Shown in pieces: positions 37,176 to 55,664 of a stretch of 60,660 nucleotides of DNA (the stretch's first letter is position 1; each line of letters begins with the position of its first letter). Position numbers and translations under genes: made by a program. Location: positions 1 to 60,660 of IMG/VR virus record IMGVR_UViG_3300046313_000786; one strand, written 5' to 3'. This DNA is from a virus. The notes under the pieces were generated by a model that worked only from the letters and a program-made list of their open reading frames with translations, was not told the DNA's origin and searched no databases.

Positions 37176-37808
37176 TCACCACCAAGTACTTGCAAAGTGG
37201 TGAATTCCATATATCTGGTCAGGAGTTGAGTGTTGAATTCCAGTGAGAGATCTGGAAAAGAACGTGTTGCTTGGCAATAGTAGAACATCAGCATCTTTAA
37301 CACAATACGTTAAAAACATTGGTCCAGTGGAGTGAAGCACCACCATCCGTTTATCGTGGTATTGTTTAGTTGGGGGCCACATCAATTCGGAAGTAATGTG
37401 ATTGAATACTGTTGTATTTGGTGCAGCTGCCATAAATGCGTTGCTTACTAACGTTTTAACACCCATCCTACTAGCATCTACTGGATGCTCGGTAGCAAAC
37501 ACTTGGTCCGTAGTTAATAGATCGTCTATTGGTTTAATTGGTTCGATGTCTAAATCTGCATATACTCCACCAACTGTGTTCAATATCAAATACCTAGCTG
37601 CATCTACTCGTTGGATGTTGTAAGGATATTTGTTGTAAGTTGATATGAAGTTAGGATACTCTGTCTTAACAAACTCTAGAAGCATATCATCGGTCCACAA
37701 TTTGTACTGCCATGTAGGGTGGAGCCGCTTCCAATTATTCACAAACTCAGCAAATTCATCAGGTATTGAGTTAGTTTTCCAAAGTTGGTGAATTATTTTC
37801 GGTATCAT
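37176..37808 (-). CDS. Glycosyltransferase, DXD sugar-transferase family
   Basis: 210 residues from the ATG at 37808, with AGGTGGAG directly upstream; a GTG at 37814 is an alternative. Starts MIPKIIHQLWKT, the signature of OCH1/mannosyltransferase-like glycosyltransferases, and has GGVYADLDIEP with the D85-x-D87 metal and nucleotide-sugar binding motif. It likely transfers a sugar to a protein, DNA or cell-surface glycan. It lies between gp20 and gp21 on the opposite strand, driven by its own late promoter (minus 37835-37842) back to back with that of gp21: a moron-like insertion, possibly modifying the virion. Confidence 0.85.
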   Translation of the reverse strand: MIPKIIHQLWKTNSIPDEFAEFVNNWKRLHPTWQYKLWTDDMLLEFVKTEYPNFISTYNKYPYNIQRVDAARYLILNTVGGVYADLDIEPIKPIDDLLTTDQVFATEHPVDASRMGVKTLVSNAFMAAAPNTTVFNHITSELMWPPTKQYHDKRMVVLHSTGPMFLTYCVKDADVLLLPSNTFFSRSLTGIQHSTPDQIYGIHHFASTWW

Positions 37809-37834
37809 CTCCACCTACCTATGTGCACAGTCAG

Positions 37835-38524: not shown

Positions 38525-39100
38525 ATGGGACGGTTCGTCAACTATCTAATCGAATCTGCCAATGTACTTAGCGAGTTGGCACTGCCACAAAACAAGTGGG
38601 AGACGTTGTTATCGACATCTGATAAGCAAGAGGTTGGCAATGACCTAATCGATTTAGTCCGCAATGCATATTACAATACACCTGAGGGTAGTTTCGTGAA
38701 TAGCCTAAAAGACGTTATACCATCTGATTGGGAAGTGATTGATTGGGACGGCGATGCAAGCATCAATGCCACTGTATTCTTTCGTAAGCCTCGTAGTAAT
38801 GAAAACTGGCAAGGATGTAAAATACAAGGTCTGGGTCACGACGGTCAGCGACATTCCAAAGATCGCGCTACTGAGAAGATGGTTACCATGCTTGGTACCG
38901 TTGGATACTGGCTCGAGGGTAGTGATGCAATGCGAGCAGTGTTGATGAAAATGCAAGTACCTGTCGTATCAAACGAGCAGTTTTTACGGCAGTTGTTCAA
39001 CGACCCAGCACTAAAAATGATAGATCACAGCACGTACCAACGCAGCTTAGGTAATAAGATTATTACCGAATCTGTGTTTGGTAAGCCCGTACTGCGTTAA
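38525..39100 (+). CDS. Conserved phage protein of unknown function
   Basis: 191 residues, eight bases after gp21. The conserved centre, AYYNTPEGSFVNSLKDVIPS then DWEVIDWDGDASINATVFFR, followed by KIQGLGHDGQRHSKD and YWLEGSDAMR, is one I have met in marine T4-like phages; it is suggestive of an acyltransferase-like (GNAT) fold, but I would not assign a function. It contains LIES/LSEL near the N terminus and IITES near the C terminus, both of the (L/I)xE type cut by gp21, so it could be packaged in the prohead. Its stop overlaps the stop of the terminase C-terminal ORF on the other strand (39097-39100). Confidence 0.6.
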   Translation: MGRFVNYLIESANVLSELALPQNKWETLLSTSDKQEVGNDLIDLVRNAYYNTPEGSFVNSLKDVIPSDWEVIDWDGDASINATVFFRKPRSNENWQGCKIQGLGHDGQRHSKDRATEKMVTMLGTVGYWLEGSDAMRAVLMKMQVPVVSNEQFLRQLFNDPALKMIDHSTYQRSLGNKIITESVFGKPVLR

Positions 39101-40278
39101 AATATCATCGGCATTTCATCGTAGTCGTCGGTATCGTCAAACTCGTGTTTACTCTCTTCCGATTCTTCGACGGAGTACAACATATCAAACGCTGTTTCGT
39201 CATATGCAGCTAACTGTTTGACGACACGGCACGTTAGTATAGTAGCCATCACACAGTCGTCTGTTGCACCTTCTTTTGCTTTGTATGTACCACCTGTTAA
39301 TATAAAGTTCTTGATTTCGTGTACCAAATCACGGCTGTTGAGTTTTAGTACTCCACCTTCAACAAACTCTTTGAAAATCTTGCACCCAAGCGCTTTCGAC
39401 TTATTGCTTGTATTCAGTCCAATCTGACCGACCTCTGATACGAGCTCAACATTTTCTGGTAGAGCCTCATCGTTCGCAAATAGCGCTAACAAGCCTTCAC
39501 CAACGCCGTTATTCTCAACTGTAAAATATACCTGCCAACCAGCCTTATCAGCCTTCTCCCATATCCGTTTCAGGGCGATGTAAATATCACCAGTCTTCGA
39601 CTTGTTTGACCGCAGCTCCATCATCTGCTCCAACCCTGGGTATGAAAACACTTGGACTACGGTAAAATCTCGTTCTACACCCTTGCTTGGATCAACAGTT
39701 ACAATACACTGCCTATCGTACACTTTAGTCTCAACAGCCTCCTGCCGACTTGGGTTGTGCCACTGATTGTGTAAATTGTAGTTATTGACTTGTTGGGATG
39801 TTGATTGTTGATATTTTATCTGCTCCTGCTTTTCAAAATCCCGCCAGATCTTAACACCAAGCTCTTGTGATTTGTGTTCGTGTGTTTTTAGTTGAGCAGC
39901 CTTCATACTATCGATTAGCAGTGGATCGCTTGATAGCATTTCACAATTGTGGGATACGACCCCACTTGATACATACGCGTGAGATGTTGTGTGTATAATA
40001 TCATATACACGCTCTGGAATGTTTTGTTTAATTGACACGACTTGCTTGTTGCGTGGAATGCCATCGAGAATCATATTTGGTTTTATGCGTTTCGCGACTA
40101 TCTCCTTGCGTTTAACAAAACACCGATGGTCTGTTGTAACTGTTAAAGTGGTTGCATCTGTAAATGTTAGTACAACTGTTGGTTTTACTCCATTAAAAGA
40201 AATGCCTCCAAAGGGCTCAAACCCATTTGGTGTTAGTATTTTGTAGCTGAGCCTGTTATTGTGTAGAATTGGGGTCAT
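39097..40278 (-). CDS. 17: Terminase large subunit gp17, C-terminal fragment with C-intein
   Basis: 393 residues from the ATG at 40278, with AAGGTGG just upstream (a GTG at 40287 would be an alternative). Residues 1-111 are a C-intein beginning MTPILHNNRLSYKILTPNGF and ending GVVSHN, then the extein resumes at Cys112 (CEMLSSDP). The extein contains the nuclease domain: DPSKG with the first Asp, and the last Asp of DDCVMA. Joined to the middle fragment it would read ...WRQEFA-CEMLSS, exactly as in an uninterrupted gp17. It overlaps the end of the HNH endonuclease gene by 23 bases. Trans-splicing is required for a full protein. Confidence 0.85.
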   Translation of the reverse strand: MTPILHNNRLSYKILTPNGFEPFGGISFNGVKPTVVLTFTDATTLTVTTDHRCFVKRKEIVAKRIKPNMILDGIPRNKQVVSIKQNIPERVYDIIHTTSHAYVSSGVVSHNCEMLSSDPLLIDSMKAAQLKTHEHKSQELGVKIWRDFEKQEQIKYQQSTSQQVNNYNLHNQWHNPSRQEAVETKVYDRQCIVTVDPSKGVERDFTVVQVFSYPGLEQMMELRSNKSKTGDIYIALKRIWEKADKAGWQVYFTVENNGVGEGLLALFANDEALPENVELVSEVGQIGLNTSNKSKALGCKIFKEFVEGGVLKLNSRDLVHEIKNFILTGGTYKAKEGATDDCVMATILTCRVVKQLAAYDETAFDMLYSVEESEESKHEFDDTDDYDEMPMIF

Positions 40279-41170
40279 ATTTTCCACCTTTTGATATATT
40301 ATCTCTCCAAGGTAACATCTGCAGATTGTTTACAGCAGCGATTTCCTCAGGTGGAATATCATTACAAAAGCCATAAATCACAGGCATTATATGATCCAAA
40401 TGATATCCGTCTCCAGATGTTGCCCTTGTGTAGTTATTTGGATTAATTGTGTGCTTGTTGGAGCGGTAGTTGCGCTCGGTGAGAGTTCGAGCTGTATAAC
40501 TATATTGCTTCCATTCCGACAATAACTCAAATGGTACCACTTTACCTAACGCTTCTAGTTTTTTTCGTCGCTTCTGCCAAGTCTCAGATGTGGTAAAATC
40601 ATTCATCCATCTGCCACCAAACGCCTTCGTTAGATTATCTAAGAACTGCCGCCGCTGTTCATCAGTCCAGTTTTGTTTTGTATTGCTTATTTTTTCAGAG
40701 TTGTTGTATTTTTTATCACCGTACAACGCCTGACAAGTCAACTCTCGCTTTATTACTGACTTTTTGTATGAACCTCGTGCTGTACCAGTGGCTATTCTCT
40801 GTTGTTGGTGAAGATATTTTATTGCCTTTGGTGTATTCAGCTTTGCTTGTTTTATACTAGCAATGTGTTGGGTTTTTTGTTCGATGCTGCGTGACCTCAG
40901 CGCATCTCTTCGAGCGATTATTGTGCATTCGTCTGAACCACAGCAAGTCAAAAACTCCATTCTACTTCGACTAAACGAGTTTCTTGCACCACATGAGCAA
41001 AATGTAACTAATTCTGGATGCATCTTGTGTATAAGATCCGCATATGATGCAACATCGTTCGTAACAAGATGTCTTAAAAAATCACCATTCTTTCTGCAAT
41101 ATATTTCACCATCTATAGGGGATTTAATAAACACTCCAAGGTATGGATACCCTTCACTATATTCTATTGC
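40256..41170 (-). CDS. HNH homing endonuclease inserted in split intein 3
   Basis: 304 residues from the ATG at 41170; a GTG at 41185 would leave almost no leader from the perfect late promoter TATAAATA at 41196-41203 (minus). The N-terminal half has two CxC-type pairs (CSCGA, CCGSDEC), suggesting a zinc ribbon. The C-terminal part carries the HNH signature GYHLDHIMPV then NNLQMLPWRDNISKGGKYD. The same HNH layout appears in the two genes after gp23. It is a free-standing endonuclease that probably homes to the terminase locus; its gene lies between the intein halves and overlaps the C-half ORF by 23 bases. Confidence 0.8.
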   Translation of the reverse strand, partial: AIEYSEGYPYLGVFIKSPIDGEIYCRKNGDFLRHLVTNDVASYADLIHKMHPELVTFCSCGARNSFSRSRMEFLTCCGSDECTIIARRDALRSRSIEQKTQHIASIKQAKLNTPKAIKYLHQQQRIATGTARGSYKKSVIKRELTCQALYGDKKYNNSEKISNTKQNWTDEQRRQFLDNLTKAFGGRWMNDFTTSETWQKRRKKLEALGKVVPFELLSEWKQYSYTARTLTERNYRSNKHTINPNNYTRATSGDGYHLDHIMPVIYGFCNDIPPEEIAAVNNLQMLPWRDNISKGGKYDPNSTQ

Positions 41171-41195
41171 CATGAAAAATAACACTTGTTGCCAC

Positions 41196-41203
41196 TTATT
41201 TAT
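41196..41203 (-). promoter_or_regulatory. Perfect T4 late promoter TATAAATA for the HNH gene
   Basis: Minus-strand TATAAATA overlaps the stop of the middle terminase ORF and precedes the HNH endonuclease start by 25 bases. Confidence 0.6.
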
Positions 41204-42756
41204 ACCGAACTCTCAGTAAGTATGTTAAACAGAGTTTCCAGTGATATAGTATGTATTTTACCACTCTCATCCTGTACTGTTACTGTTTCGTCACTTTCGC
41301 AGCAAGCGAATTCTTGCCGCCATTTTAATTCCCCATTCTTTGCGATTTCTTGCTTCTTGAACGCTTCGGTACGACCCGGTACTTTATTCCATTTAATTGT
41401 TAGTGGCTTCATTCCATTAATACCTGCTACAGCACCTCGCCATAGTGTTGCAAATAAATCACTATCACCATTTGGTGTAGAGGTCATAAACAGTTTACCG
41501 CCAGTTGCTAGTGTAGGAGAAATTGATGCCCAGAATTCAGTCTGAATCATCGGCCGCACGAAAGCTGTTTCGTCGCAGTTTTTTGTAATAATGTTCCCAT
41601 TAACTAAAAATGAGTGATCGCCATTTTTTACCTCCACTAAATCGTACACCGCTGCTGTATCAATCGGTTGTACATCAGTTACAATCAGTTGAGTTGTGGT
41701 AGTGTCGATGCATTCCCATGCACGTAAATCTCTTGTTTGCTTGCGTTCACCACTTGTGAAAAAAGCGTGTTCAGCAGTAGCATCTACGTGGGTACCATCG
41801 GAAAGTGATATTCGAAATAATTGTTTATCGAGAGTTTTAAGTATACCACTAAAGCCGACCCAACCGTGGGGAGTCAAAACTTGATGTGTTGTATTTGCAT
41901 TAAATCCCTCACTAGCATTAATCCCAGTTGCGTGATACAAGTCGTGTAAAGAAATTGTCAATGCATCACCCACATCGCTTTCACGAACTGTTACCGTTGT
42001 ATCTCCACCAAGGCAATACAAAATTGAGAATGATCCGCCTCGACCAGTTGTTTCGGATGTTGCATCAGAAATAATGCGACTACCTGTTTCAAACTTCAAT
42101 GAAAGCTTATTCCAACCATCGTCTGTTACTCCAGGTTTTAAAAAGTCAGGAAGACTCTCGTACATGTATTTGATACGTGATATCATCTCACTTGAATTTT
42201 TGTGTTTATTACTTGTTATTAGTACAGTTTTATCTTTGTTGAAGATACTGAACCAAAACAAATACGCACAACTCGTCTCGCTGTTGTGTGATAAAATATC
42301 ATTAGTATAATACACGTGGTTTTCATCAGCTAATTCCAAATCGTACATTGACTCAGGAGGGCAGTCTATTTTTGTAACACTGATTACAGTTGCAATTCCG
42401 TTAATTGTTACAAGTTCGTCACCTAGCGCCAAATCTTTGGTAAACACTTCAGCTCCAGTACAATCAATCAAAAGGTGCTCGTCGGCACAATATATTTCGG
42501 AACCATTATTTAACTTAACACACCATACGTCGTACGGCACAGTTTTAAAGATGTGCTTAACGGGAGCAAATCCGGAAGGGGTGTTTACGAACAAATCGTC
42601 TGGTGCACCCCTCTCGACAAATTTGAGGACGTTGTTGTTATATATTGAACACAGAGCAGACTCGGTTTCGGAGAATAGTTCACCTATCGAAATATCAGAT
42701 GCATTTAAGCACCAATTGCGGAATGAAGATTTTAATTGTTTAAAAAGTGTAAACAT
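41200..42756 (-). CDS. 17: Terminase large subunit gp17, middle fragment with two intein parts and a mini-intein
   Basis: 518 residues from the ATG at 42756, which has TTGGAACA upstream; a 15-residue longer start at 42801 lies inside the endonuclease gene. Order: C-intein 1 (residues 1-158, ending ILSHN); extein (159-247) opening SETSCAYLFWFSIF with KTVLITSNKH; mini-intein 2 (248-393, from CLGGDTTV to IITKN); extein (394-484) opening CDETAFVRPM, with LFMTSTPNGDSD; and N-intein 3 (485-518). The extein parts hold the ATPase domain: Walker B ILY-CDETAF and coupling motif TSTPNG. Must be spliced in trans at both ends and in cis once. Confidence 0.85.
   Translation of the reverse strand: MFTLFKQLKSSFRNWCLNASDISIGELFSETESALCSIYNNNVLKFVERGAPDDLFVNTPSGFAPVKHIFKTVPYDVWCVKLNNGSEIYCADEHLLIDCTGAEVFTKDLALGDELVTINGIATVISVTKIDCPPESMYDLELADENHVYYTNDILSHNSETSCAYLFWFSIFNKDKTVLITSNKHKNSSEMISRIKYMYESLPDFLKPGVTDDGWNKLSLKFETGSRIISDATSETTGRGGSFSILYCLGGDTTVTVRESDVGDALTISLHDLYHATGINASEGFNANTTHQVLTPHGWVGFSGILKTLDKQLFRISLSDGTHVDATAEHAFFTSGERKQTRDLRAWECIDTTTTQLIVTDVQPIDTAAVYDLVEVKNGDHSFLVNGNIITKNCDETAFVRPMIQTEFWASISPTLATGGKLFMTSTPNGDSDLFATLWRGAVAGINGMKPLTIKWNKVPGRTEAFKKQEIAKNGELKWRQEFACCESDETVTVQDESGKIHTISLETLFNILTESSV
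41578..42015 (-). mobile_element. Mini-intein 2 in the Walker B motif
   Basis: 146 residues, contiguous. Splicing block A is CLGGDTTV at its start; block B-like DGTHVDATAEHAFF is near residue 73-86; block F-like YDLVEVKNGDHSFLVNG; ends IITKN before Cys+1. No endonuclease domain. The usual penultimate His is Lys (TKN). It interrupts gp17 between ILY and CDETAF, immediately before the Walker B Asp-Glu. Confidence 0.85.
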
Positions 42757-43742
42757 TGTTCCAATACTTGTTGAGGGGATTTTCTGAAGTCGTTTTCCCA
42801 AACGATATGTACTTTGTAACCTGCATCTGTGTAACCGTCTGCACGCTGTTTATCATTCTCCCATAGATGTGCTGCTGTTAATGGAGGGTTACTTTGTCTA
42901 ATAACATCACCCGCATTGTATTTTTTCGGATTAGCGTGAAAGTAATCTCCAAAAAACTCAATGATTTTTTTGCTGGTTGTATCAACGTAATCAGGTCTGA
43001 AAACCTTATGTGCTACCTTACCTTGTCGAACTACTTTCACAGTAATTGCCATTTCGCTATTGTGATATGCTGATCGCACACTATCCGACTTAGGTAACTG
43101 TGCAATCAAATCATTTGATATGTTAGACACACCTGTCTTCGCTCCGCTTTTTGTGAATGATTCGGACCACTTTTTTTGTCTAGCACACCACCGTGCATAG
43201 CCGTCTTCCTCACCGTACTTTTCAATGCACTTTTTTAAAGAGAACGTTCGTTGACGATCTGATTGTAGTTCGGTAGCTTGTTCAACATCACCATTAGTTC
43301 GTTGTAACCAGTAAGCGAGAGTTGTACTGGAGGGAATTTCGATCCGCTTTGCTGTTGCGTATGCTTTAACTTTTGCAATTCGCTCAGCAACTTCTTGCTC
43401 AGATAATCCTCGATATTTGATGAATTTAGGTGAGTGAGCAGAGTATTTGCCACCGTGTCCTTTAGATGGGTTTCGAGTAAGCGCACGAGTGGTTAACTGA
43501 TCGAGATAGTTCTTACACATTAGAGCAGTTTTATCGCAATTAAACTTTTCGTAGTATTGATCAGTTGTTAACACGTGAGCTGATTTTACGTGCTTGGATA
43601 ATTGAGAAGCCTTCAATCCACAGCATTTGCAAGTTACAAATTCAACTCCTTCAACTGCGTTCTGATATTTTTGATTGTTTGTCAACATTTTATGATGTTG
43701 GTTACTACGTGTTTGTCTTTCTTTACTATTCGAGGAATACAT
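42732..43742 (-). CDS. Vsr-like (EDxHD-type) homing endonuclease in split intein 1
   Basis: 336 residues from the ATG at 43742, with AAAGGA upstream. Starts with a C2H2-like zinc finger (CKCCGLKASQLSKHVKSAH); the middle has two helical DNA-contact-like repeats (around 125-200); the C-terminal catalytic part has IIEFFGDYFHANP followed by WENDKQRADGYTDAGYKVHI and WENDF, the very-short-patch-repair-like fold described for homing endonucleases of fractured intein genes. It overlaps the N fragment by 17 bases and the middle fragment by 25 bases. A late promoter (ATAAATAG, minus 43790-43797) precedes it. Confidence 0.82.
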   Translation of the reverse strand: MYSSNSKERQTRSNQHHKMLTNNQKYQNAVEGVEFVTCKCCGLKASQLSKHVKSAHVLTTDQYYEKFNCDKTALMCKNYLDQLTTRALTRNPSKGHGGKYSAHSPKFIKYRGLSEQEVAERIAKVKAYATAKRIEIPSSTTLAYWLQRTNGDVEQATELQSDRQRTFSLKKCIEKYGEEDGYARWCARQKKWSESFTKSGAKTGVSNISNDLIAQLPKSDSVRSAYHNSEMAITVKVVRQGKVAHKVFRPDYVDTTSKKIIEFFGDYFHANPKKYNAGDVIRQSNPPLTAAHLWENDKQRADGYTDAGYKVHIVWENDFRKSPQQVLEQCLHFLNN

Positions 43743-44088
43743 CTGTAAAATCCTTTGGAAAAAATAACCACAGCAATACTTGTTTAAATCTATTTATGGA
43801 TTTTTTCTGAACCCTCGTTAATCTGGTATTTGCTCTGGTGCATTTTCCAGATTGGCGTGGAAATAATGTAATTACGTCTTTATGGTTGTGATATGCGTCG
43901 ATTAGCTCAACTTGATAATCGTATAGATTGAACAGCGTTCGTCCTTTAACAGGATGTCGAACGTAGACGTAATTTTGAATGAAGTGAATTGGATCCTTAG
44001 CACATTTTGTGAACTCCCTCACCTGATCTGGTGTCATTTCAACACTAGTTGAGTTGCCCTTTTTTACATTGACGTTTTTCGTTGCCAT
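43726..44088 (-). CDS. 17: Terminase large subunit gp17, N-terminal fragment with N-intein
   Basis: 120 residues. The extein part (1-82) reads MTPDQVREFTKCAKDPIHFI in its middle, then GRTLFNLYDYQVELID and ends VITLFPRQSGK, the front half of the Walker A motif. The intein starts at Cys83 and runs to the stop at residue 120. Only about the first 21 intein residues (to FKQ) look native; the remaining 17 seem to read through sequence brought in with the endonuclease. Late promoter GTAAATAG is 25 bases upstream (minus 44113-44120). The mature protein assembled from all pieces would have 544 residues. Confidence 0.85.
   Translation of the reverse strand: MATKNVNVKKGNSTSVEMTPDQVREFTKCAKDPIHFIQNYVYVRHPVKGRTLFNLYDYQVELIDAYHNHKDVITLFPRQSGKCTRANTRLTRVQKKSINRFKQVLLWLFFPKDFTDVFLE
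43790..43797 (-). promoter_or_regulatory. Late promoter ATAAATAG inside the N-intein
   Basis: Minus-strand core within the N-intein coding sequence, 48 bases ahead of the endonuclease start. Confidence 0.5.
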
Positions 44089-50506: not shown

Positions 50507-51829
50507 ATGAACTTATTTGAAAACTGGGGCGAAACGAAAGAAGTCCTATTAACTGGCCTATCCGGCGAAAAGCGTAAAGTTGTTGATACACTTTTGGAAA
50601 ACCAAAAGACTTACAACCTAAACGAGTCTGCAGCTAGCGGTTCTATCGCTGCTCAAGATATCGCTGGTTTCCGTAACATCTTGATCCCTATGATCCGTCG
50701 TATCATTCCTGGTACAATCGCAACTGAACTAGTTGGCGTTCAGCCAATGAAAGCTCCAGTTGGTATCGTGTACTCGATGCGTTACAAGTACAATGAGACT
50801 CTAGCAGCTCCTGGTACCGTAACAGCTGGTGAAGAAATGTTTGGTAATGCAGAGCCAGTGCGTCGTTACTACTCTGGCGCTACTGATGCAGCTGTTGCAG
50901 CTGGCGCTTCTGGTATCGATTCTGGTTCTGGTCAGCCAAACATCTCTGGTGTTCCATCTGGTCAAGGTTGGGGCGCTAATGCTGGTCACTCTGCACTAGA
51001 TGGCTGTACAACTGGTGGTTCTGGTGGTACAATGGAAGGTTCTGGCGGCCGTAAGGTTTCCCTAGAACTAGTATCTCAGGCTGTTGAATCCAAGAGCCGT
51101 AAATTGCAAACAGGTTGGACAATCGAAGCTATGCAAGATTTGAACAGCCAACACGGCATGAACATCGAAACAGAAATGACAACAGGTATGTCTGCTGAAA
51201 TCGTTCAAGAAATTGACAACGAAATCATCAGCGACTTGCTAGCACTAGCTGGTACTGTTGCAAACTGGGACGGCGCTCTACCATCCGCAGCTGGTTACTA
51301 TCGTCCAACATTCGGTGGCGATCGTTTTGCTCAATTGGGCATCTTGATCAACTACGTAGCGAATGAAATCGGTCGCAAGACACGTCGTGGCACTGCTAAC
51401 TTCATCGTTGTTTCTCCAATGATCGTTTCCATCCTTCAATCTGCTGCTAAGTCCGTCTTCGCACCAGCTATCGATGGTTCTTTCAAAGGTCCAAATAACA
51501 CAATGCTAGTTGGTACATTGAACGGCTCTATCAAGGTGTACTCTTACCTATGGAATCAAACTCAGGCAACTGATGTTGGTGGTACAGGTGATGATGAAAT
51601 CTTGGTTGGTTACAAAGGTGGAAATGGCGAGCAGGACGCAGGCTACTTCTACTGCCCATATGTTCCATTGATGTCTACTGGTGTGATCATGAATCCAGTG
51701 ACGATGCAGCCGGTAATGAGTTTGATGACTCGTTACGCAAAAGCTCAATTTACAAGCACCACAACCTCTTTGGGTAACAGTGCTGACTACTACGGCAAGA
51801 TCACTTGCTCTAACGTGTCGTTTGCTTAA
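50507..51829 (+). CDS. 23: Major capsid protein gp23
   Basis: 440 residues with AAAGGAAAATTGAA before the ATG. The N terminus ends in LNESA: cleavage after E40 by gp21 would give the mature protein starting SAASG. Family landmarks: AGFRNILIPMIRRIIPGTIA, GVQPMKAPVGIVYSMRY, and GGRKVSLELVSQAVESKSRK, then the MTTGMSAEIVQEIDNEI region. The HK97-like fold forms the capsid. Codon use is strongly biased, as expected for the most abundant protein. It shares this bias with the 1391-residue fibre. A terminator follows. Confidence 0.96.
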   Translation: MNLFENWGETKEVLLTGLSGEKRKVVDTLLENQKTYNLNESAASGSIAAQDIAGFRNILIPMIRRIIPGTIATELVGVQPMKAPVGIVYSMRYKYNETLAAPGTVTAGEEMFGNAEPVRRYYSGATDAAVAAGASGIDSGSGQPNISGVPSGQGWGANAGHSALDGCTTGGSGGTMEGSGGRKVSLELVSQAVESKSRKLQTGWTIEAMQDLNSQHGMNIETEMTTGMSAEIVQEIDNEIISDLLALAGTVANWDGALPSAAGYYRPTFGGDRFAQLGILINYVANEIGRKTRRGTANFIVVSPMIVSILQSAAKSVFAPAIDGSFKGPNNTMLVGTLNGSIKVYSYLWNQTQATDVGGTGDDEILVGYKGGNGEQDAGYFYCPYVPLMSTGVIMNPVTMQPVMSLMTRYAKAQFTSTTTSLGNSADYYGKITCSNVSFA

Positions 51830-52079: not shown

Positions 52080-53204
52080 ATGACTCGAAAATATGACAGA
52101 TATCCTAATTTACTCTGGTTTATTGAACAACAGCTTGATTACACCATATTAACATCTCCTGTACCGATGCCACTACTAACAACTACTCACCTGACAATAC
52201 GTTGCAATAAATGTGATACCATAAAAGAAGATTGTAAAATTTTGCGCTTAATTCATGTTAATGAGCATCATGGGACTAGGGGATGTTCAAATTGCCGAGA
52301 AATAGAGAAAAAAACCCAATCATCCATACGCACTCAAGAGTTGTTGGATAATATCAACCAAACATATAATGTTGAGTTGGTTGGATCTATACCGAAGAAT
52401 CGCGCGATACGAACCACATTCAAATCACATAGTTGTGGTCACGAGTTTTCTTCTACAATAGAAAACATACTCTTGCATGGCACTACGTTGTGTAAGAAGT
52501 GCTCCAAGCAAGTTCATAGTGACAAGCTACGAGTTGCTGCAAGACAAAAGCTTATATTAGATGTACAACATGATGCTGCTACGTATGCGGCATACGAACA
52601 TAGGGTGCGACTGATGACTGAATCTAACTGGAAGCAGTACAAACCCCTAATTAACCCACACAATTTATCGCGCACATCCTCGGCGTTAAAATCTGGTCAC
52701 CACCTTGATCACTTAATCTCTGTGCGATTAGGTTACCAGTTGCGATTGTCGCCAGATATTGTTAGTAGTGTTGAAAACCTAACAATGATTGATTGGAATG
52801 CAAATTTAAGTGCACGAGAGGATATCTCAATAAAGCTAAAACTTGTTCCACACTTGATTGACAATCTAACTGAATTAGTTACCAAATATAGTGATATATT
52901 GCAGCTGTCAGAGGTGGGGTGTGTATCTGCTACAGATCAGTATCAACAATCTGAGTACTTCCAACTATTTCCATATTTGGAACACAAAGCACCTGGCAGG
53001 ACAAAATTAAAAACTCACCAACAATTTGTAGATAATGTGCAATTGGTCCAACCTGATCTGACAGTAGTTGGGCGCTATGTCAATAGTTACACTAAACTAG
53101 CAATTCGTTGCAATAACGGTCATGTGTGGGATGGTAGACCCAATGGTATCCTTCATAAAGGTCACGGGTGTCCTGTGTGTGCTCGAACCAAAAAGCAAAA
53201 CTGA
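52080..53204 (+). CDS. HNH homing endonuclease with zinc ribbons, copy 1
   Basis: 374 residues. Two zinc-ribbon pairs in the N-terminal half (CNKCD...CSNC and CGHEF...CKKC), then the HNH segment HHLDHLISVRLGYQLRLSPD with ENLTMIDWNANLS, and a C-terminal ribbon CNNGHVW...GCPVCAR. The arrangement parallels the next gene and the HNH endonuclease inside split intein 3. It is a free-standing selfish endonuclease between the gp23 terminator and the GroES gene. No promoter was found on its own strand; expression may rely on transcription passing the gp23 terminator. Confidence 0.75.
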   Translation: MTRKYDRYPNLLWFIEQQLDYTILTSPVPMPLLTTTHLTIRCNKCDTIKEDCKILRLIHVNEHHGTRGCSNCREIEKKTQSSIRTQELLDNINQTYNVELVGSIPKNRAIRTTFKSHSCGHEFSSTIENILLHGTTLCKKCSKQVHSDKLRVAARQKLILDVQHDAATYAAYEHRVRLMTESNWKQYKPLINPHNLSRTSSALKSGHHLDHLISVRLGYQLRLSPDIVSSVENLTMIDWNANLSAREDISIKLKLVPHLIDNLTELVTKYSDILQLSEVGCVSATDQYQQSEYFQLFPYLEHKAPGRTKLKTHQQFVDNVQLVQPDLTVVGRYVNSYTKLAIRCNNGHVWDGRPNGILHKGHGCPVCARTKKQN

Positions 53205-53227
53205 ATAATAGTCAATATCGTTACCAC

Positions 53228-54361
53228 ATGCGAACAACAAATATAGCCAAATTGCAGCAAGTTGATGCGAATATTCGTGCATTCTTCACCTCTCTCAGGT
53301 ACCAACCTATTGATACTGATACACTCCTTCACACAGGAATGAGTATTGATATTCAATGTGAAGAATGTTCTGCAGTATTGCAACATCAGCGAATATCGAA
53401 GTTTCAATATATCTACAAGCATTATGGCACTCGTGCATGCCCAGCTTGCAAACTGATTTCACAAGATGTTGCACGAGTTCAGAGAATCCAGTCATTCATT
53501 ACTCAATTAGAGCAGGACACGTCGCTACGGTTAGTTGACCACAGTACACTCCCGCAATCAAATACAGACAAGCACTTGTATAAATCTACTATTTGTGGTC
53601 ACACATTTCTATCCACCATTGATAACATAAGAGCGAATAACCCAACCGTGTGCTCTGCTTGTTCTAGATTGCAGGCAAACAATAAGATTCGTGATACGTA
53701 CAAAGCCAAATCGATTGCAACAAAACTAGTAACTCCAACACTATCAGGATACGCGAAGGCTGTTCGATCCGTTACTGAATCAACATATCGTCAGCACAGG
53801 TTAGTAATTAACCCCAACAATCATCAGCGTAGCCACGCTAAACATAAAACCGGCTATCAACTTGACCACATCATTCCCGTTAGGTTAGGGTATGAACTTC
53901 GTTTATCGCCTGACATTATTGGAGGCATTGATAATCTACAGATGTTGGACTGGGAAACAAATATTAAAGTGCAGGAGTTTTTAGACAGGAAGATTCATTT
54001 AGTGCCAAATACCAAACAACAGCTGCACCAACTGTGTGTGCAATACCCTCACATTGCATTCGATGGAGCTAATATCACACTCGCTCGTGAGTATTTGGAG
54101 AGTGACTACTATTTAAATTTTCCGTTTTTGGAATTTACAGCATCAAATAAGAACAAGCGACTAACTCAACAACAATTCGTTGATAGAGTTGCAGTTAAAT
54201 CACCAACTATAGCAGTTATTGGTCATTATGTTAATAGTGTATCGAAAATAGAAGTGCAGTGTACTGTATGCAATCACTTCTGGGCAGGTTGGTCTGGAGA
54301 TTTAATGCGAGGTCACGGTTGCCCAGTATGTGCTCGATCTAAGAAAGTAAAAAATGTATAA
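53228..54361 (+). CDS. HNH homing endonuclease with zinc ribbons, copy 2
   Basis: 377 residues from the ATG at 53228, chosen because it falls after the preceding stop; an in-frame ATG at 53168 would overlap copy 1. Same layout as copy 1: N-terminal ribbons (CEECSAV...CPACK and CGHTF...CSACS), HNH segment YQLDHIIPVRLGYELRLSPD with DNLQMLDWETN, and a C-terminal ribbon (CTVCNHFWAG...GCPVCAR). The two are clearly paralogous but diverged throughout, so the duplication is not recent, or they arrived separately. It overlaps the next gene by eight bases. Confidence 0.75.
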   Translation: MRTTNIAKLQQVDANIRAFFTSLRYQPIDTDTLLHTGMSIDIQCEECSAVLQHQRISKFQYIYKHYGTRACPACKLISQDVARVQRIQSFITQLEQDTSLRLVDHSTLPQSNTDKHLYKSTICGHTFLSTIDNIRANNPTVCSACSRLQANNKIRDTYKAKSIATKLVTPTLSGYAKAVRSVTESTYRQHRLVINPNNHQRSHAKHKTGYQLDHIIPVRLGYELRLSPDIIGGIDNLQMLDWETNIKVQEFLDRKIHLVPNTKQQLHQLCVQYPHIAFDGANITLAREYLESDYYLNFPFLEFTASNKNKRLTQQQFVDRVAVKSPTIAVIGHYVNSVSKIEVQCTVCNHFWAGWSGDLMRGHGCPVCARSKKVKNV

Positions 54362-55664
54362 TCACACACTATCTCCTGATAATGCAGCATTGTTTGAAGC
54401 AATGCTGATATCCCTTACATCACCTCTTACACGGATGGTTGATAAACACTTAATCAAATGTGATGTTTGTGGTCACGAATTTACTGCAACACCAATATCT
54501 AAAGCAGCTAACTATAAAAAACACGGTGCAGGGGGGTGTCCAAAATGCACTGCAGCAAATCGGTCCGCTGCTTTAACTGGTAAGAAGTCTACAAAACCGT
54601 TTCAAGTATTTTGGGATCAACTCAGTTCCCGTCTCCAGGGGACTCCAGTCGACATCACTGCTGTAAAGCAATCGTATGAAATAACTCGATCGCAGAAAGT
54701 CCGAGTTGAGTGGAAGTGTTTAACAGATGCTACCCACTCAACTTGGATTACGACGATTGCGTCAGCAGTTGAGGGGCACGGGTGCCCAGAGTGTGGGAAA
54801 GCAAAATCTGCGCTATCACGACAGTTAATGGGAAAATCTTATAGATTAACAGCGGAATTGGGCAAAGAGCTCAAATCACCAATATTACTTGGCCCGAATA
54901 AATTACCATACATTGAACTACAAGATAGGCGCGTGTCTATTGTTAGTCTTGATGATGTTGCAGAAAGTAAGTTTGGGAAATACAAGCTACGAGACACCGC
55001 TGATATTGTATTTTTTGAGGACGAGTGGAAAACTAATAAACAACTATTAGTGAAAAAAATGGATCATATCCTCGGAGTATCAACAGTTCGGTCAATATAT
55101 GCGAGACAGTGTGTAGTACGATCGATATCGAATCAGGATACTAGAGAATTATTAAACGCTGCTCATGTACAGGGATTTGTAACTGCTCAGTATTGCTATG
55201 GGTTATTTTTTAACGATGAATTGTTGGCAGTACAAACATTCTCTGCCCCTCGAGTTCTTATGTCACAAGGTGCTGAACCAAATACATATGAACTGATCCG
55301 ATACGCAACGCGGGAAGATGTTCGAGTAGTTGGTGGAGCATCCAAATTACTAAAGGCATTTGTTGTAGAGCACTCTCCAAAGCTAATCTTTAGTCTAAGC
55401 GACAACAGATGGAGCGAAGGTAACCTATATCAACGATTGGGGTTTGTTAAGAAGGCTATTAACCCCCCTGATTATTTCTATATTGTTGATGGAGTACGCA
55501 AACACAGGTGGGGATTTCGCAAAGATAAGCTTCGCGATAATCCAAGTGTTAACTGGGATGCGACTCGTACTGAATATGATATGGTTCTCAACGATTTGCA
55601 TATCGATCGTGTGTGGGGCAAAGGGACAACTCGGTGGGATTTGGTGTTGCAACCTGTTGCATAA
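54354..55664 (+). CDS. Zinc-ribbon, nuclease-like and GNAT-like fusion protein
   Basis: 436 residues. N terminus: ribbons CDVCGHEF...GCPKC and CLTDATH...GCPECGK, close in style to the two HNH genes before it. Middle: a segment IVFFEDEWKTNKQLLVKKM then LGVSTVRSIYARQC, a pattern I recall from widespread phage proteins that resemble Vsr/PDDEXK-like endonucleases. C terminus: NAAHVQGFVTAQYCYGLFFN then LIRYATREDVRVVGGASKLL and LSDNRWSEGNLYQRLGFV, with a GNAT/Mom-like look. I read it as a probable homing-type endonuclease carrying an acyltransferase-like domain; no reaction is shown. Confidence 0.55.
   Translation: MYNHTLSPDNAALFEAMLISLTSPLTRMVDKHLIKCDVCGHEFTATPISKAANYKKHGAGGCPKCTAANRSAALTGKKSTKPFQVFWDQLSSRLQGTPVDITAVKQSYEITRSQKVRVEWKCLTDATHSTWITTIASAVEGHGCPECGKAKSALSRQLMGKSYRLTAELGKELKSPILLGPNKLPYIELQDRRVSIVSLDDVAESKFGKYKLRDTADIVFFEDEWKTNKQLLVKKMDHILGVSTVRSIYARQCVVRSISNQDTRELLNAAHVQGFVTAQYCYGLFFNDELLAVQTFSAPRVLMSQGAEPNTYELIRYATREDVRVVGGASKLLKAFVVEHSPKLIFSLSDNRWSEGNLYQRLGFVKKAINPPDYFYIVDGVRKHRWGFRKDKLRDNPSVNWDATRTEYDMVLNDLHIDRVWGKGTTRWDLVLQPVA

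Follow-up and report, generated by a model that had tools for sequence, protein, structure and literature searches.

The fractured genes of Dassa et al. 2009 reportedly came with a new endonuclease family, which is said to be VSR-like. Three articles document genes that are broken by split inteins and accompanied by a free-standing endonuclease gene (PMC6892783, PMC8228797, PMC7090010). In the phage large terminase subunit (TerL), the N- and C-terminal halves of split inteins measure 25 and 104 amino acids (aa) in AceL and 37 and 115 aa in GOS (PMC11766414), and VidaL and PolB16 are split at the S1 position, with N halves of 16 and 15 aa (PMC13014065). Here, we analyse the large terminase gene gp17 in the IMG/VR record IMGVR_UViG_3300046313_000786, a T4-like fragment with recognisable portal, major head protein and tail tube; the whole virus record of 60,660 bases is called the window. 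Its gp17 is spread in consecutive parts over three minus-strand open reading frames (ORFs; 39097-44088) and has very probably acquired three unrelated inteins in separate invasions of three conserved motifs, the three polypeptides being spliced to a gp17 of 544 aa, presumably in trans at junctions a and c and in cis at junction b.

In locus order, extein e1 is followed by the N-terminal half of split intein a (IntN-a), a homing endonuclease gene (HE1), the C-terminal half (IntC-a), extein e2a, the contiguous intein b, extein e2b, IntN-c, a second homing endonuclease gene (HE2), IntC-c and extein e3. Four IMG/VR relatives (L009, L013, L014, L015), 74-99% identical to the window piece by piece, carry an uninterrupted gp17, in which e1 and e2a, e2a and e2b as well as e2b and e3 directly abut. 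These exact empty sites fix the positions of the three junctions, and show that the intein boundaries which a preliminary description had read from the letters alone were exact to the residue. The alignment of the exteins with intact gp17 that it had proposed thereby finds the pieces contiguous at all three junctions, with an identity of 82-87% for e1, 98-99% for e2a and 82-98% across e1, e2a and e2b. Junction a (GK/S, the slash marking the insertion point) is located inside Walker A with Ser as the +1 nucleophile, while Cys is the +1 nucleophile at junction b (Y/CDE), just ahead of Walker B, and at junction c (QEFA/C). The residue preceding junction c (41305-41313) is Ala in the window versus Glu in close intact relatives, and Q, S, G or A in other interrupted genes.

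Intein and terminase profiles agree with the empty sites that the three ORFs hold consecutive gp17 parts, and that two split inteins and an uninterrupted intein of 146 residues reside in one gp17; the extein lengths (82 + 89 + 91 + 282) sum to the 544 residues that had been predicted upon intein removal. All three ORFs match the PHROG terminase large subunit, and the middle and last ORFs match solved T4 gp17 structures on sequence; with an ATPase bearing Walker A and B and an RNase H-like nuclease, the protein is a T4-type terminase large subunit. A Pfam PF03237 profile search of the record gave no match, as the gp17 pieces are short. The middle ORF matches Pfam Intein_splicing (1.6e-11), the intein C-terminus TIGR01443 in two stretches (1.3e-6) and the intein N-terminus TIGR01445 (9e-6). 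IntN-a and IntN-c, too short for profiles, were both identified by alignment with relatives, Cys1 and Thr6 of IntN-a being invariant across nine of them. Among solved structures, IntC-c credibly matches none but CatC, a consensus atypical split intein (E 0.0015), AceL and GOS having been compared by half lengths. As in a fractured gene, consecutive parts are encoded on separate ORFs, with IntN ending the upstream ORF, IntC opening the downstream ORF and an endonuclease gene in between. Likely starts are ATG 42756 for the middle piece, which begins within the end of the HE1 gene, and ATG 40278 for the last piece, rather than upstream TTG/GTG codons; the latter start (AGGTGGAAAAT-ATG) has a plausible ribosome-binding site.

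The ratio of nonsynonymous to synonymous differences (pN/pS) between the window exteins and intact relatives is 0.143-0.154, compared to 0.139-0.170 among the intact relatives. As purifying selection on the exteins thus equals that among intact genes, the gp17 of the window is not a relic. Fractured gp17 genes are equally found in complete genomes of isolated phages, at junction c in Vibrio phages VP-1 and Va1 and Providencia phage PSTRCR_127 and at junction a in Agrobacterium phage Atu_ph07, each with a single detected gp17 place. Since these phages were propagated, their isolation implies that a fractured gp17 must be able to yield a working terminase. Selection on the exteins, together with the finding that the only detected gp17 of the isolates is fractured, argues for splicing.

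Several observations weigh against a spliced, functional gp17. The record is a metagenomic fragment of 60.7 kb, so that an intact gp17 might be located elsewhere, and strain mixture is possible in a metagenomic assembly. IntN-a is divergent, is detected by no profile and shares with its relatives only Cys1, Thr6 and one Lys as invariant residues; intein b terminates in TKN and not in HN, as do its relatives in L011 and L083; and the amphipathicity of the helices in the two halves of intein a is not significant (shuffles as high: 0.14 and 0.11). The incompleteness of the record would allow for a dead relic, a fractured gp17 that gives no protein while an intact second copy does the work. This is nevertheless highly improbable, as the pN/pS of the exteins is that of intact relatives, all extein and intein pieces are free of stops and frameshifts, only one gp17 is seen in close relatives and several isolates have the fractured gp17 as their only detected copy. 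In the 60.7-kb fragment itself no second gp17 was found, all four matches being the known pieces.

The metagenomic origin of the record could equally point to an assembly artefact or strain mixture that joined endonuclease insertions from different strains. The chance of this is slight, however, as 12 further non-redundant loci, all from different samples, have the two-unit architecture, single units are present in isolate genomes and compact, clean overlaps join the ORF ends to the following ORF starts. A precedent for gp17 pieces that work unspliced, as separately folded subunits, is a phage ribonucleotide reductase which, according to PMC10448857, is split by an endonuclease gene and functions as separate peptides. 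For gp17 such an enzyme in pieces is hardly credible, as the breaks inside Walker A (GK/S) and beside Walker B make non-covalent assembly of the ATPase site implausible, and intein halves are kept at both ends, with Ser, Cys and Cys at the +1 positions. Removal of the interruptions from RNA as group I or II introns, although terL introns exist in phage ICP1 (PMC10448857), has a negligible probability, as what interrupts the gene codes for intein halves and for a contiguous intein in open frame, and no Rfam match was found anywhere in the window at the gathering threshold.

Table 1. Features of the fractured gp17 locus in the window
Feature	Position	Strand	Length	Residues or motif	Match or remark
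gp17 extein e1, N-terminus to Walker A	43843..44088	-	82 aa	...PRQSGK	PHROG terminase 2.6e-17
Late-promoter-like motif, T4-type	43791..43797	-		CATAAATA	about 50 nucleotides upstream of HE1 start
N half of split intein a	43726..43842	-	38 aa	CTRANTRL...VFLE, stop	short beta segment and helix-forming tail
HE1, free-standing homing endonuclease gene between the halves of intein a	42732..43742	-	336 aa		ROS_MUCR 3.1e-7, possibly VSR-like fold
C half of split intein a	42283..42756	-	158 aa	MFTLFKQL...DILSHN	intein profiles
gp17 extein e2a	42016..42282	-	89 aa	SETSCAY...FSILY	terminase profile, T4 gp17 structure match
Contiguous intein b, without endonuclease domain	41578..42015	-	146 aa	CLGGDTTV...IITKN	
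gp17 extein e2b, Walker B region	41305..41577	-	91 aa	CDETAFV...RQEFA	
N half of split intein c	41200..41304	-	34 aa	CCESDETV...ESSV, stop	
Late-promoter-like motif, T4-type	41197..41204	-		TATAAATA	31 nucleotides upstream of HE2 start
HE2, free-standing homing endonuclease gene between the halves of intein c	40256..41173	-	305 aa		HNH/endonuclease-VII-like; phrog_1035 endonuclease VII 1.7e-5
C half of split intein c	39946..40278	-	111 aa	MTPILHNN...GVVSHN	
gp17 extein e3, nuclease domain	39097..39945	-	282 aa		Terminase_6C 2.1e-7

With respect to the origin of the fractured arrangement, a maximum-likelihood tree of 89 inteins places 46 of 47 site-a inteins in one clade (100/100), the contiguous intein b of the window as sister of the split intein b of L011 (100/98) and its split intein c as sister of the contiguous intein c of L204 (100/98). 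As the tree positions differ, the inteins at a, b and c belong to separate lineages. That the three window inteins are copies of one another is ruled out by the tree and by their pairwise identity of 24-27%; such a low identity is consistent with orthogonal pairing of the halves. Split and contiguous forms are interleaved on the tree, with at least 17 state changes. For example, intein b is split, with a gene in the gap, in L011, which is closely related to the window (e1 and e2a 84-99% identical), whereas intein b of the window is contiguous. Splits seem to outlive the endonuclease, as about 34 of 86 split junctions possess no separate gene of at least 120 codons in the gap; in some, such as VP-1 and Va1, an endonuclease is fused to a half. 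A second intein site near b, DE/C after Walker B, is distinct from Y/CDE of the window (L001:1726-2160, L094, L109, L114), and a further insertion site is located downstream of Walker B in the e2b region (L016:1794-2807, where it reads IIMVS/C...HQ/TPYG; L041:7841-9121; L063:695-2005).

Mobility of a unit can be observed directly in the Vibrio phages VP-1 and BX-1, listed as one species, the DNA of which is 98.2% identical ahead of junction c and 95.6% beyond. Exactly at this junction, VP-1 (L003:5897-6966) holds a unit of some 1,070 bp that BX-1 (L005) lacks, consisting of IntN, a GIY-YIG-like endonuclease fused to IntN, and IntC. This provides direct evidence for the gain or loss of such units in their entirety.

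Using profiles of the four extein pieces, each junction was classed as intact, contiguous intein or split in all fetched loci. Among 161 non-redundant complete loci, counts that derive in part from a search selecting for site-a inteins, gp17 is intact in 98 and split at two or more sites in 13, the window and 12 others. A census by the nuclease domain only, unconditioned on the junctions, covered 76 complete loci, of which 55 are intact and one is doubly split. The double break, considered unusual in the preliminary description, is hence uncommon, but not singular: multiply fractured gp17 genes are uncommon but recurrent. The extreme is L084 (358-5435), with gp17 in four ORFs and split inteins at a, b and c, all halves of which are readable; endonuclease genes are present at b and c, the one in the c gap looking like the GIY-YIG type, and none at a. 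L083 has gp17 split at a and b. L016, from the same contig as L054, is split at c and possesses a site-a C half with an HE1-like gene upstream and another contiguous intein between, the contig starting too late to show e1. The split-contiguous-split arrangement is, among the loci classified, found in the window only. In two loci the gene upstream of gp17 is partly similar to the gp17 ATPase pieces (L018:8815-9567, L044:207-452).

Intein a stands out by the position of its break. In site-a N halves, aligned separately from whole inteins, a short beta segment is followed by a helix-like tail with the consensus FKKxLLKLxDKxxY (window, L041, L043, L055, L064, L259, L250), and the C halves open with another helix-like stretch (LKxxIxxWCL). 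The contiguous site-a inteins L045 and L108 hold both helix stretches in one chain. An AlphaFold model of the L108 intein (mean predicted local distance difference test score (pLDDT) 92.5, predicted template modelling score 0.84) adopts the intein fold, with gp41-1 and VidaL, both inteins, as best solved fold matches, and shows helices 17-25, 27-34 and 51-63 inserted between strands 7-11 and 66-70. Judged by this model, intein a of the window is broken in the loop of a helical hairpin, an insertion that contiguous relatives possess as well; helical segments thus remain on both halves, and may dock them. An ultra-short VidaL-like N half was considered for IntN-a and ruled out by the hairpin of the contiguous relatives: S1-class inteins are split right after the N-terminal beta strands with an N half of 15-16 aa, while IntN-a has 38 aa and ends inside the inserted hairpin. 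In published natural examples, atypical inteins are broken behind strand beta2 (VidaL, PolB16) or behind the first helix (AceL and GOS TerL; PMC13014065), so that the hairpin split represents a further split-site type, and intein a is split elsewhere than the known TerL inteins. Junction a of L250 (5960-7096; = L039) houses a tandem of two inteins: the N half of a split intein (CVVGNTEVDV...) follows immediately on a large contiguous intein (ALDINTPIPTPTGW...MIPTHN) and supplies the +1 residue of the latter.

The endonucleases in the gaps are of site-linked types: in split-junction gaps, relatives of HE1 are confined to site a, and those of HE2 to site c apart from a single case at b. HE1 combines an N-terminal Ros/MucR-type zinc finger with a C-terminal, putatively VSR-like nuclease; top fold matches of its model (mean pLDDT 74) are 1vsr and 1cw0 (probability 1.00 and 0.99) and I-Bth0305I (3r3p), with weak E values of 0.014-0.21. 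Its likely start, AAAGGATTTTACAG-ATG, has a plausible ribosome-binding site. The motif [TC]ATAAATA occurs at most 80 nucleotides upstream of 17 of 41 non-redundant endonuclease genes, where random windows expect 0.98, versus 37 of 213 other large ORFs (Fisher p 0.0014). Across the whole window the motif is not over-represented; only its placement ahead of endonuclease genes is unusual. These sequence patterns suggest that each intein/endonuclease unit brings a putative late promoter, which may also drive the downstream gp17 piece. Elsewhere in the window, three more consecutive endonuclease genes (52080-55664), the first two with HE2-related stretches, are located beside the major head protein gene (50507-51829). 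A minus-strand gene between portal and the next plus-strand gene (37176-37814) matches phrog_28262 weakly and looks glycosyltransferase-like by eye.

Cumulatively, these observations can be arranged into a mechanism. Three unrelated inteins would have invaded gp17 independently at three conserved motifs, two of them as units of IntN, endonuclease gene and IntC that cut the reading frame into three ORFs, and the third as the contiguous mini-intein b. The phage would make three gp17 polypeptides, of which IntN-a would pair with IntC-a, helped by the helical segments on both halves, and IntN-c with IntC-c, each pair folding as a HINT domain that ligates the exteins in trans. Intein b would excise in cis to give the 544-aa gp17 able to package DNA, while the endonucleases would carry each unit into the uninterrupted junctions of other gp17 genes. 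What the analysis documents is the anatomy, the exact empty sites, the separate lineages, purifying selection, recurrence and a unit that one of two conspecific isolates has and the other lacks; we infer splicing and its pairing specificity, docking by the helices, homing and the use of the promoters. Beyond the window, we lean, on slightly better than even terms, towards terminases as a natural multi-piece assembly system, in which inteins of independent lineages at three fixed sites repeatedly convert between contiguous and split states, giving up to four genes and up to three orthogonal trans-splicings, and in which, in one lineage, an inserted hairpin tolerates the break and then docks the halves.

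An essential protein put together by two or three trans-splicings in nature would be the native counterpart of engineered multi-segment protein ligation, and split-intein sets that evolved side by side in one gene should be mutually orthogonal. Neighbouring pairs of split and contiguous inteins (b of the window and L011, c of the window and L204, a of L043 and L108) allow the direct study of split-intein birth and possible healing, while protein engineering might use the hairpin split site as a docking module. The locus also illustrates the degree to which a core viral gene can be broken up by a selfish element and still not be lost.

While fractured genes and atypically split TerL inteins are already known, multiple breaks in one gene seem to be new; the literature searched, which was not covered exhaustively, yielded no description of a gene with more than one split intein. 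As in the fractured genes of Dassa et al. 2009, the extein halves of the window are located on separate ORFs with intein halves at the break and an endonuclease gene between, but the window possesses two breaks and a contiguous intein in one gene, and its HE2 is of the HNH type. Split inteins of phage DNA polymerase (MIJ3, PMC6892783; Aes123 PolB1) likewise break a phage core gene with an HNH endonuclease gene between, although in another gene and only once. Intein c with its 34 + 111 aa resembles AceL-TerL, GOS-TerL and Cat (PMC11766414; PMC13014065; PDB 6dsl) in its location in a phage TerL and in Cys+1, but is one of two split inteins in the same gene and has a contiguous sister, L204. Intein a, like VidaL and PolB16, is broken between the first strands and the next strand, but within the loop of an inserted hairpin and with a longer N half. 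Its insertion site GK/S or GK/T and clade are shared with the Walker-A TerL inteins of Ackermannviridae and Campylobacter phages, which are, in contrast, contiguous, without a free-standing endonuclease and, in the rows aligned, without the hairpin.

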